A DNA stretch of 64,000 bases, taken from NCBI RefSeq assembly GCF_026151205.1, contig NC_087074.1, positions 744,001 through 808,000 of the forward strand. The letters run 5' to 3'. The stretch's first letter is position 1, and each line of letters starts with the position of its first letter. The stretch comes from Bolinopsis microptera (taxonomy: Eukaryota; Ctenophora; Tentaculata; Lobata; Bolinopsidae). The position numbers and the translations under genes were made by a program. The notes beneath the pieces are model-generated. The model saw only the letters and a list, made by a program, of their open reading frames with translations. It ran no database searches and was not told the origin of the DNA. Of the stretch, positions 2,764 to 42,200 are shown one piece after another.

Positions 2764-5700
2764 TATTTATCCGATATAGCTGCCATGAAAGATCTTATCC
2801 TGAAGTTCCTGTCCCGGACAGCGCTGAGTCGAGATCCCTCTCCAATCGTGTTATCAGTAACTACCTTCTCTCCTTACCCCCTGATAAAGACATCCTCTCT
2901 TTAGCTGCCGGCTCTCCTGCTCCCGTCACCTTCCCCATCGAGTCAATGTCCGTTAATTTAAAGTCTGGAGAAAATTTAAAGGTAAGGTAGGGTTAGTTGA
3001 ACCTCAGTTGGCAGATTGATCATAAATTTAAGTTGAAGTAGATATTTTTAAAAACGTTTCCAAAAAGCTGCCCAGAGATCTGACATTGCTCGGGTAAGAA
3101 ACCAGCAACCTTTTCATTTTGTTCTCAATTCAGATCGAAGGTGCCGCAATGGCTGCTGTAAGAAACCAGCAACCTTTTCATTTTGTTCTTAATTCAGATC
3201 GAAGGTGCCGCAATGGGTGCTGTAAGAAACCAGCAACCTTTTCATTTTGTTCTTAATTCAGATTGAAGGTGCCGCAATGTAACCATGGTAACTAGATATA
3301 TCTCAGATCGAAGGTGCCGCAATGTAACCATGGTAACTAGATATATCTCAGATTGAAGGTGCCGCAATGGCTGCTGCTCTTCAGTACAATAGGACGATAG
3401 GTCAGGTTGGTATTCTAGACTTTTGGAGCAAGATCATCGAAGAGATGCAGCCATATCCTGGCCCAGGTTTCACTTTTATCTGAGTTTCTTCCTCTTGGTC
3501 AGCTTTGCAAAGTTAGAATTATTGCAGTTCTCTCAGAATTATTATTAATTTATTTAATATTATTGTCGTGAATGTCTTACAAAACTTTTACACTAGAACG
3601 ACAGACGATCGTTACAACTGGAGCAGAGTTTGGTTCGTATCTGGCTCTCAATGCTCTGATTGACGATGGGGACTCTGTGTTGATTGCCAACCCTGTTTAC
3701 CCTCCCATGTTACTGAAGGTATGTCCTGTGATCAGGGGTGTAGGAAGCGGGGGGGGGGGGGGGGGCATACCTTATTTCCTGGGTCGTGTTCAGGTGATAG
3801 AAGATTGACTCTGGTATGGACAAAGTTTCTGCGCGTTATTTATTATCATTACTGTGTCATTGTTACCGCTCCGTATTTTCAGTCCAGAGCGATGAGTGCG
3901 AACGTGGTGTCAGTGCTTGAGGACCCAGTGGTCGGTGGTTTGTGTCCGCGGAACCTACGTGCCACATTAGAATCCTGGCCAGATGCCAAACGGAAACCCA
4001 AAGTTCTCATCGTTTGCCCGACTGGCAGTAATCCGAGTGGAGCAAACATTCCAGAAAAGCACCGGCAGGAGATTTACGATATAGTTTGTGAACACGACCT
4101 GCTGATTATTGAGGACGACCCCTACTATTTCATAAACGTTAGTTTTTAATAAACATGTTTACAGTACTTCCCTTCAACCTGATTCGTGCATGTGGAATGT
4201 GGATTGTGGTTTTATTAATAAGAACGCTGACAAAAGCTTAACTAACAAGAATTGCGCCGGTTAGCGGACGCTAGATTTCCATCGCCCGTAATTAATTACA
4301 ATTAACAATCGTTTCATATTGGTTAAATTACCAAATTTCTTTGGGGCGTTACAGAGAACAAAATGGAGGGGTTGCCGTTGTCAATTATTTGAATCGAAAG
4401 TTAAACGACCGGACACCGTAGCGCAGCCTGTACGGTGATATGCATGATGCAGTTAAAAGGACATCTGTCCGACAGCGACTCTTGTCCGACTCAATATGTT
4501 ACCAGAAAAAAAAGACATCTGTCCGAAATTGTGATCTAATTGCAATACGACACATTTCCATTTTCCAATTAGAGACATGATCTGAACTGAGATATGACCT
4601 GAGCTGAACTCTACCATAGTTTATTTTCATTTGATGTCAAAAATTGGACAATAGTTTAAATGTTATATAAATAACTGATCTCCATACCGATCTCCTGTGT
4701 GTAATGTAGGCTGTGATGTGATTGGCAGCTTGTTACAGCTTGTTAGTGTACGGCTAGCATGATCCTGTCCTCAAATAGTCAATCACGTATCGATGGATCA
4801 GATCTCAATGGATCAGATCTCAATGGATCAAATCAGCATTATATTAGAACTGTGGGAGCAACGTCACAAGATTACACGTGAGCTTGTGAAATACGAACGT
4901 GATCCGAAATTGCAAATGTGATCCGAAAGTTGGACAGATGTCGCCAAAAACGACTCCTATCTGACAGCGACTCTTGTCCGAAACCGGTAATTCGACTGTC
5001 GGACAGATGTCACCCAATCAAATCTGTGGTAGTTAATACAATGTGAATCATAATAAAATGTATCGTTCATTTCGTCTAAATATAATGAATCAATCTATTG
5101 GCAATCATGTTCAACATGATAGTCATAACATCATAATTTATACAACAACATAACGGATTACTAATATCGGGTTGCACCAAGCACCCACAACAAAATGAGA
5201 AGTTTGTATCGCATGAAGTTAACGAAAGCTTAAACGACAAATATCAATGCGAATCAAAATGTATAACAGCGAAAAGAGATATACATGCGCGCCGTACACG
5301 ATTTATTAGCTCGATTCTTGGTATAGTAACTATAGTCATAGAGTACACTTTGACATAAAAGCATTGTAAAATGCGCGCGCGACCATCAAGAGTTAATTTG
5401 TAAAGGAGCACGTGTTTGCGGAGGTTAATGCATGTTTTGCTTTGTGACACGACGAAAAACCTATACCCACTATACCCATTCTCAAATCCTACCACTTCTA
5501 ACCATCTATTGCCTTTTTAGGCGATGGAAAAAATAACTGCCTAAAATCTTCCAGGTTTCACTTATCTCATAAGAGAACATGCATTAACGTTTTTCAAATC
5601 CTATTTTCAGGGGATCAAGTTGTGGAACACAACAAGAAAATTGAGAATAATCTTGTGCGAGGGTAATCTTGTGAAGGATAACAGTGAACGTAATCAGGCA

Positions 5701-39200: not shown

Positions 39201-42200
39201 GAAAACTTTCACCGAAGTTACTGTGATGCTCACTGCTGATCGACCCACCAAACTTGTGGCGAAAAGGCCTGCTTCAGCTGATAAGAAAGCTCCCAACAAA
39301 AAACCACCTCGCCCTGACGTACCTGCTCCTGATAAAGGTTCATCCCGGGCTCCAGAATTTCAGAAGAATACCAAGAACGTTCCAGATATAATTCACGATC
39401 ATAGCTTCCCTGGTGACAAGAAGAAGCACACTTTACAACGTAATCTAGTACCAACACGCGATCAACCGAGCGCTGTATGTGCAGGCCAGACAAGTCCAGT
39501 TAGTGCCACTCAACCAGCTGATACAACTAAACCAAGTCTGGCAAATACCTCTCATCTAAATGAGACACGTTATTCTCCTCCCCGCCCTAACGAGACCTGG
39601 GAACGACAAATATTGACATCGTTTCGAAATCTGTTTAATAAGAAAGAAACAAGTGACGTTATTATTTTGTTGGGAAACGAGCGGATCTACGCGCACAAAC
39701 TGATATTAGATTTGAACAGCAAGCTGGTACAGAGCCAGACTGAAGCACAGCACAACATTGAGGTATGTGCTAATTAGTAATTAGTAAATAGTAAAGGGAC
39801 AACAACAATTTACACCAATTGATTTGCATAGTTTGATTTCCCCTTATTGTTGATAACTTTTCTGATATTTTCTGTTATCTTAGGGACGCTTGACAGTTGA
39901 CTTATTGGACTACACGGAGGATCATGAAATTTTAAGGGAGATTGTCGAGAGTTTCTACACCGGGTGCCTCGTCGTCAACAGGTTTATTTGCTGGCAATTA
40001 GCTGTTTCTTTGATAGACCTAAGAAACGGAGTTGATGCAAGGAACTGATTACTATTTCACTACAAGTGGGTTTGTGTCGTCTTACCCCAGAAATGTAATT
40101 CTTCGTTCTAAGGTTAACCGTAATATTGAGCTAACTAGATTTAGGTACTGGCCACTGGGGCAGCAGCCAGAATAACGGTCATTGGGGTTGTGCGGAAACG
40201 AAGCATTTATTTTACCAAATAACCGTAATTTATCTGTGATTTGAAACTGTGATCAGTTACTGACAGGTGAACAAAGCCGAAAAAGTTCTGTTTCCAATCT
40301 TTAACTGTTTAACATGACGTAGACAAGTCTTTTTAAGCAATCCAATTATTAATCCTCCCCTCATGTGTTTCAGGGATAACATAAAAGTTGTCTACAAGTT
40401 TGCCAAGGTTCACTCAATCAGGTGGATTTCATCCTTCTCTCTCAAACTATTCGAGAGCATGATCCCTAAAGACTTTGTCGCGATCTTCCAGTAAGTAATT
40501 AATTATCTTCCAGTAAGTAATTAATTATCAATCAAGTGTCCGTTGTGCTTGGGCCACTATGCCGAAACTCCAGTTTAAACGAAATTGTATATTAGTGAAA
40601 GTCGTGAAATGAACATAAACCATTTATTTCTGTGCGACCATAACCGGGAAAACATAAATTATTCTCGATTATCGGTATAATTTCGACATCATTCGCCATA
40701 AAACTTATCCTTCCGTTATTAACAAGATCGTCACATACGTTATTCACATACGATGATCGTACGTATTTACTTTGGACAGGTTTGCTACAAAACTCAAATG
40801 TGAACCGCTTAAAGACCTGTGTATCAGTAATCTAACCCATCCCCTCTTCACATCTCTACTCGATTGTGGGGATTTGTGGAGGTTGGAACCTGAGTCCATG
40901 GCGGTACTGGTTTCTACTGACAGCCTCAATATTCAGGAGTCTGACGTAAGTAGGGAGAGTTAACGAAATGTACTGCATTGAATGTGTTTATGTTTGATAA
41001 TTACTTTTAATATAATTCATTATGAGTTTGGTTAGCTCCCCCCCCCCCCCCCCCCGCTGCAATATATAGTTGGTAAGTATGTATATTGTATAGCACAAGC
41101 CCTTCAGGTGTTCTACCTGGTCAGTAGATGGTATGAATATGATCAGGTCAAACGAGGGAGCTACATCTCTGAACTTCTATTCAATATTCGCTATCATCTT
41201 ATGAGGTCAGATTAAAGGACAATAATTTTGAACAAAAATACTATTACTCAAGAATCAAGATGCACCTGGCACAATCATTTTCTTAATACTTTAATAATTT
41301 GGATTTCTATCAAATTCTGCACATTATATTACGTCTGAGTTCTTAAAATACTTCAATTCAGCAAGGAGCAGCTGGTTGGACCTGTTTACGACTGGATCTC
41401 TGCTGCAAAGGGTCTCGAGGACGACACTAAACTCAGACTCCTGATCAAGATAAACAAATTCATGAAAGTTCCAGGACTTGTTGCACTGAACAACACTAAT
41501 CACGTGTTTGGTGGCAAGGGTTCCAGCAAGAAGTTGTCGAGGAAGCTGACGGGTGATGACGAGACCCTGCTGCAACTGATTGTTCACTCTGTCCAGTACA
41601 ACAACAGTGCTCGGTGTGCGGATTCTAAACAGCTCATGAAGGTTACAATAAGATCATTAGTGACACAATATGATGAACAAACATGTTGAACAATCTAGGG
41701 TTTCTCCATTAATTTTATTTATACTATAATACAGGAACAATCTGGATTCTGGAACAATCTGGAACTTTCAGACTCTATCTTTCAGGTTCTACGTGAAAGT
41801 TATCCCCGAGCAAACCCCACCGACAAAGCAATGCGTTGTAGAATACATCTCAGAGAACCAACTAGTGGACTCCACCAACATTACGTCTCTTCTCCAGACA
41901 TACACAGTCACAAAAGCACCAGAATGTCCTGCTGCTTTGTGTCCAGTACGTCATGTCCTCCATCACCAGGAATATTCACCAAGTTATGTGGGAGCAACTG
42001 ACTGCTGAGGTTGTGAAGGATATGCTGGCAGAGATTAACGCAGGTACATGGTTTTGTAGGGACTACACCCGTAGTCCCTAATGGTTTTGGCGAGGTTATG
42101 CCTTTCCTCAGAAAGAGTTGCTTTTAAGGAGGCCCCTTTTGCTAGAAAATTTATGGAGAATTTAGGTTGCCCATTTACAGTATTCTTTGAAATTGAGTTA

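Follow-up and report, generated by a model that had tools for sequence, protein, structure and literature searches.

Tandem arrays that contain the edge of a coding exon together with its own splice site were found in five genes of a 64,000-nt stretch of the genome of the ctenophore Bolinopsis microptera (C3:744001-808000, contig NC_087074.1; this whole stretch is called the window), and again in genes of an independent region on another chromosome. In a set of nine genes, 12 of the 15 arrays straddled an exon-intron junction, against 4.68 expected from random placement (P = 6.5e-5). Taken as a whole, the arrays are best explained as minisatellites like the 'mirages' of amphioxus, which would arise by local duplication of an exon-intron border and then expand, with the outermost copy being the one that is spliced. 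We assign this explanation a probability of about 0.7.

Exon-border arrays and their host genes

The assembly comprises 264.65 Mb in 232 contigs. Arrays were detected with Tandem Repeats Finder (TRF), and copy counts and variants were obtained by tiling the units along the arrays. The initial annotation of the window had named eight arrays or pairs of copies at exon edges, in five genes and at both types of splice site. TRF recovered seven of these in the window, and inspection of the surrounding sequence confirmed that all eight are present, each with an exon edge and its own splice site:

3094..3369, + strand: aminotransferase acceptor array; TRF rows 3094-3279 (64-bp units x2.9) and 3258-3369 (45-bp units x2.5); five acceptor copies, the last predicted to be functional (exon start 3352)
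6310..12089, + strand: aminotransferase donor array; TRF, 47 bp x123; predicted functional exon end in the first copy (exon 6197-6349)
12643..12685, + strand: aminotransferase acceptor duplicate; 13-base match at a spacing of 30 bp (12647/12677); second copy predicted to be functional (exon start 12678)
21037..23186, + strand: taxilin donor array; TRF, 46 bp x46.1 plus a 32-bp partial unit; predicted exon end in the first copy (exon 20933-21061)
30525..30933, + strand: histidine-phosphatase acceptor array; TRF, units of ~123 and 101 bp; four acceptor copies, the last predicted to be functional (exon 30897-31018)
34509..34682, - strand: M13 peptidase acceptor array; TRF, 44 bp x3.9; predicted functional exon 34397-34521
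35062..36073, - strand: M13 peptidase acceptor array; TRF, 46 bp x22; predicted functional exon 34953-35085
40483..40529, + strand: donor array of a BTB/BACK gene; TRF, 22 bp x2.1, with 3-bp microhomology; predicted functional exon 40374-40490

The 12647/12677 pair is visible in the sequence, and was kept out of all counts because it is too short for TRF.

The independent region (C1:1000001-1200000, 200 kb) lies on another chromosome and was chosen blind to its content. It contained five further straddling arrays, in genes for NOG2/GNL2 and PLC-gamma:

C1 region: NOG2/GNL2 acceptor array; TRF period 41, x8; on the same exon as the donor array
C1 region: NOG2/GNL2 donor array; 38 bp x164; on the same exon as the acceptor array
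C1 region: three PLC-gamma donor arrays; 48 bp x2, 66 bp x11 and 48 bp x2

Hence, arrays at exon borders recur in unrelated genes on two chromosomes, C1 and C3. Two more arrays in the C1 region, at a gelsolin acceptor and a PLC-gamma donor, lie 2 and 3 bp from the junction without crossing it. The C1 gene set is completed by genes for gelsolin and an EF-hand protein, both confirmed by Pfam. A two-exon predicted gene in the same sample matched Pfam HEXIM (1.2e-9); it is outside the nine-gene set and has no array whose unit reaches 20 bp. A 40-kb stretch of C2 held three arrays with units of 20 bp or more, and contributed no gene to the nine-gene set; one of these arrays was inside a predicted gene, where it straddled no junction.

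The annotation had further proposed that the outermost copy of each array remains the functional exon edge, and several observations support this assignment. When the exons were joined at the outermost copies, all five window genes gave open frames, and each internal edge carried its AG or GT; this result concerns the joined exons, as the gene starts were not fixed. The window genes matched the Pfam families Aminotran_1_2, Taxilin, His_Phos_1, Peptidase_M13 and BTB, with a weak match to BACK. The aminotransferase is of the kynurenine/alpha-aminoadipate type (best match among solved structures 2.6e-72), and the solved structure matching the M13 peptidase is endothelin-converting enzyme 1 (2.5e-107). 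These alignments were free of gaps over the array junctions, at both junctions of the aminotransferase and both of the M13 peptidase. The phosphatase found its best match among named proteins in a Mnemiopsis leidyi protein (72% identity over 68% of its length), and this alignment of 134 residues spans the array acceptor without a gap. Likewise, both junctions of the NOG2 array exon were gap-free in the alignment to the solved nucleolar GTP-binding protein 2.

Use of an inner copy would mostly be disruptive. In all seven donor arrays, splicing at the next donor would either shift the frame (four arrays) or stay in frame and meet a stop (three arrays). For the three of five acceptor arrays that gave a clear outcome, use of the next acceptor would shift the frame in two and meet a stop in one. 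Because the next donor breaks the frame or meets a stop, the cell would have to favour the outermost site, presumably through exon definition. By tiling, the splice dinucleotides of the inner copies showed no special conservation and no erosion: GT or AG in the core was altered in 1 of 123 aminotransferase copies, 1 of 164 copies at the NOG2 donor, 1 of 22 M13 copies and 0 of 46 taxilin copies. In the 4 of 12 arrays examined for this, the functional copy differed from the array at one site in the aminotransferase and at none in taxilin, the M13 x22 array and the NOG2 donor.

Placement relative to random expectation

For the null expectation, arrays were collapsed to one unit, exons were annotated on the collapsed sequence, and the array footprints were re-placed randomly within their own gene; placements wholly inside an exon were excluded. 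The main set comprised nine genes with 48 introns and 96 junctions, and arrays with units of at least 20 bp. Omitted from the main count were units below 20 bp, the M13 array at 34066, which lies inside a dispersed element, and the 64-bp one of the two overlapping TRF rows at one acceptor. Gene models were made with a gene finder seeded with checked exons, which recovered most exons of the window; the M13 44-bp array, the NOG2 donor and PLC-gamma exon 3, where the collapse of arrays containing small indels disrupted exons, were set by hand.

The 12 straddlers consist of seven donor and five acceptor arrays in seven genes. In the window alone, all seven arrays straddled a junction (2.68 expected, P = 7.1e-4). 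Because the window was picked for its arrays, the fair figure is that of the C1 region, where five of the eight arrays did so (2.00 expected, P = 0.023). This independent excess is suggestive, not conclusive. It agrees with the prediction of the initial annotation that arrays overlap exon edges more often than shuffled positions do, here for the window and the C1 region rather than for the whole genome.

The count was repeated under several variants of the set. Moving the end of PLC-gamma exon 1 by 2 bases left it unchanged (P = 6.8e-5). With the long phosphatase unit removed, 11 of 14 arrays straddled a junction (3.96 expected, P = 8.4e-5), and without the fifth exon of NOG2, an unchecked prediction, the nine-gene count was 12 of 14 (4.60 expected). 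Keeping the element-borne array at 34066 gave 12 of 16 (4.43 expected, P = 5.8e-5). Inclusion of units from 12 bp gave 12 of 21 (4.95 expected, P = 4.3e-4), and 5 of 10 in the C1 region (2.22 expected, P = 0.043). A larger set of 22 multi-exon gene models, 13 of them beyond the nine-gene set, gave 13 of 21 (5.11 expected, P = 1.2e-4), after removal of one array that was entirely exonic, and with one of the straddlers located in a repeat-derived model; the C1 region within this set contributed 6 of 11 (2.46 expected, P = 0.016).

Base composition had little effect on these numbers. If arrays preferred DNA rich in guanine and cytosine (GC), which here means exons, the straddlers might simply be the survivors of selection. 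Exons indeed have a higher GC content than introns (0.468 vs 0.343), and other arrays have a slightly raised GC content (0.422 vs 0.387, P = 0.057; 52 arrays). However, weighting the null by GC shifted the expectation only from 4.43 to 4.72 (12 of 16 arrays, P = 1.2e-4; C1 region 5 of 8, 2.20 expected, P = 0.034), and we regard this account as improbable.

A more serious alternative holds that there is no border bias at all: minisatellites would be seeded at random, introns are short, selection would purge exonic arrays, and the window was picked for its looks. The fair null is indeed high, at 0.14-0.44 per array and 0.72 for the phosphatase, because introns are short and random units therefore often overlap a border; collapsed intron lengths were 82-872 bp in 47 of the 48 introns and 2,027 bp in the remaining one. 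Moreover, the position of the junction within the 12 units was compatible with a uniform distribution (Kolmogorov-Smirnov P = 0.19). The excess in the C1 region and that in the 22 gene models, including the C1 part of the latter, argue against this alternative. We consider it possible but rather unlikely.

Several further points weigh against a border bias or against our explanation as a whole. A crude first pass with poorer gene models gave 7 straddlers among 24 genic arrays (3.81 expected, P = 0.063) and, with units of at least 15 bp, 7 among 33 (4.40 expected, P = 0.13); restricted to units of 20-150 bp it gave 7 among 23 (3.35 expected, P = 0.034). The five C1 straddlers are all in two of the four counted genes, and hence the excess could be a peculiarity of certain genes. 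In NOG2 and PLC-gamma the arrays were spotted first and the homology was checked afterwards, while the EF-hand and gelsolin genes were taken up before their confirmation by Pfam, which came last. Splicing was read from frame and homology, and the arrays from one assembly, rather than from RNA or sequencing reads. Finally, an excess among the arrays that survive would look alike whether duplications arise preferentially at borders or are preferentially kept there. On balance, a bias of the arrays towards exon borders is probable, on the basis of nine genes, and the borders would appear to receive or keep more duplications than random placement gives.

Unit anatomy and local origin

The units of the straddling arrays are 22-123 bp long, and the exon contributes 8-51 bp to the 12 units as read from the sequence. 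A unit class of 44-47 bp, which the initial annotation had singled out, comprised five of the seven units in the window but none of the five in the C1 region (TRF periods 41, 38, 48, 66 and 48), and was rejected.

The units are of local origin, as had been proposed. A search of the assembly with three of the 12 units (aminotransferase, M13 and taxilin) matched, within its limits, the aminotransferase unit to its own array only, and the M13 unit to its own array and one 43-base stretch on C11. The taxilin unit matched only at its own gene and at that gene's inverted duplicate (C3:451729-460577, pieces 89-98% identical), where a diverged taxilin array occupies C3:454189-456244. Because the unit occurs in the duplicate too, the taxilin array cannot be younger than the duplication, unless it was converted. 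The inverted segmental duplication as a whole pairs window ~12778-25400 with C3:451729-464239 (85-98% identical in pieces). It contains taxilin together with the array, and of the aminotransferase gene just the 3' end. Array-free sites were sought in this paralogous duplicate, and none were found, since it covers only those two parts.

Elements of a dispersed kind do occur in introns of these genes, and the arrays might in principle stem from a dispersed satellite or from a transposable element that inserted close to exons. In contrast to this account, which we consider extremely unlikely, the array units carry the host gene's own exon edge, and the aminotransferase and M13 units are, within the limits of the search, confined to their own arrays but for the one match on C11.

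The copies within an array are often identical. All 46 taxilin copies, 143 of 164 NOG2 copies and 79 of 123 aminotransferase copies match their consensus, and the aminotransferase array has 40 substitutions at one single position. Because so many taxilin and NOG2 copies match the consensus, expansion or homogenisation appears to be recent. Forty-six identical copies are also difficult to assemble, which would fit an assembly artefact. However, the aminotransferase, M13 and NOG2 arrays contain irregular variants, different genes on C1 and C3 are affected, two-copy cases assemble easily, and the taxilin array recurs in the diverged inverted duplicate. Hence, an artefact is very unlikely.

These observations would fit a sequence of steps in which a short tandem duplication, some tens of bases long, arises locally across an exon-intron border; the units are local and contain both exon and intron sequence. 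In three two-copy arrays the overlap at the duplication joint was 0, 3 and 3 bp, which points to repair or slippage that needs no long homology, so that the duplication may be made by repair of the end-joining or fill-in type. The array would then grow by slippage, unequal exchange or conversion, as the identical and near-identical copies indicate. Gene function would be kept as splicing takes the outermost copy, the choice that yields the shortest exon and that would be expected under exon definition.

What places the duplications at borders could be DNA lesions linked to splicing or transcription, at a nucleosome edge, a stalled polymerase or an R-loop. The occurrence of straddlers at both donors and acceptors in seven genes would agree with such lesions, as would the gelsolin and PLC-gamma arrays within 3 bp of a junction. 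This 3-bp criterion, however, was chosen after inspection. Moreover, the coding-strand GC skew of 11 units was inconsistent, with a mean of -0.03, so that a simple G-skew R-loop model gains no support. We consider lesions of this kind an unlikely cause.

Certain words are enriched in the array units. In 131 arrays from the window and the sampled stretches, GGTTAC, GGTAAC, ACTAGT and CATGGTA were 4-11 fold more frequent than in non-array sequence, with each word occurring in 6-12 arrays. In the collapsed sequence overall, GGTAACC was over-represented (112 vs 20 expected).

The window also contains repeats of other kinds. A dispersed element of 1.3 kb (window ~4243-5535) occupies intron 4 of the aminotransferase gene, and many of its listed genomic copies are 92-98% identical. 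Another of ~380 bp (window ~17380-17760) has genomic copies on many contigs, often as adjacent inverted pairs. Two more dispersed families are present in introns (window ~33932-34285 and 23732-23875), and the 21-bp array at 34066 sits within the former. Long hexamer and octamer tracts of GGAGAC/CTCCGT at window 46771-49861, read as GD/EG repeats, mislead gene prediction.

Comparison with known systems

The initial annotation had regarded boundary-seeded arrays as an undescribed system. This view does not hold, as both the mirages of amphioxus (PMC3087553, PMC3902484) and the exon stuttering of chicken (PMC12954441) have been published. The arrays are of an already described kind, found here in a new phylum, Ctenophora, and at high density. 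No report of exon-border arrays in ctenophores was recognised in the literature searched, where most subscription journals fell outside. For the ctenophore Hormiphora, the genome paper reports 13% TRF repeats (PMC8527503).

The mirages are described as minisatellite-like repeats spanning exon-intron boundaries in Adh3, the globins BflGb6 and BflGb9, TnC and PGBD5 (PMC3087553, PMC3902484). As here, with seven donor and five acceptor arrays, both 5' and 3' boundaries are reported to be hit and the genuine exon edge is kept. The described units of 10 to ~160 bp include the range of 22-123 bp found here. Normal splicing is reported for amphioxus, whereas our reading relies on frame and homology. 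Mirages are further characterised by length polymorphism or somatic instability, and by concerted evolution that leaves out the boundary copy, to be compared with the single difference in the functional copy of the aminotransferase array and none in the other three arrays examined. Furthermore, the phylum is different, and copy numbers here reach 164, compared with 3 and 6 in globin BflGb6.

Sequence or exon stuttering in chicken, described in 2026, concerns 236 introns, of which 190 are on dot chromosomes, and more than 90% of the copied exon sources are reported to lie at most 1 base from the border (PMC12954441). In both systems part of the exon edge and the splice site are copied through the adjacent intron, the origin is local and the arrays are detectable by TRF; the exon part has a reported median of 36 bp in chicken, compared with 8-51 bp here. 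For chicken, the proposed causes are meiotic conversion or a replication stress that GC or DNA structure brings about (PMC12954441). There, the arrays are concentrated on GC-rich dot chromosomes and vary in length between birds, whereas C1 and C3 are each >21 Mb. The GC-rich setting of dot chromosomes is absent here: the sampled GC content was 0.405 and 0.393, and that of introns 0.343. Hence, high GC is not required.

Two other systems are related more loosely. In human paralogs, internal tandem repeats located at exon-intron boundaries have been proposed to create introns (PMC2812944). They share minisatellite units of ~30 bp, some of them at boundaries, but are described from segmental duplications, with ~4 copies on average, and are tied to novel introns. 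In the model of Rogers (as cited in PMC3087553), introns are gained by tandem duplication of AG/GT sites. Duplicated splice sites are common to this model and our arrays, although we read the latter as duplicated borders rather than as gained introns. The 64-bp units of the aminotransferase (3094-3279) start with GTAAG, their intron part ends in TTCAG, and a 24-bp stretch in frame with the exon follows. Such a unit is potentially a cassette of a 40-bp intron and an 8-codon mini-exon, like an intermediate in the mirage models of intron gain.

These arrays offer a natural test of two questions: how the spliceosome chooses a single site out of more than 100 that are nearly identical, and whether exon borders are hot spots of mutation and thereby contribute to the gain of introns. 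More speculatively, exon-intron borders may be hot spots for short tandem duplication across animals, with one border-directed, GC-independent process behind the ctenophore arrays, mirages and stuttering that continually supplies duplicated splice sites for introns and mini-exons; we regard this generalisation as doubtful. What the present analysis adds is that a phenomenon of lancelets and birds now extends to a very distant lineage, where it is dense (12 of 48 introns in nine genes) and where GC content is not high, a finding that speaks against any need for GC as a cause.

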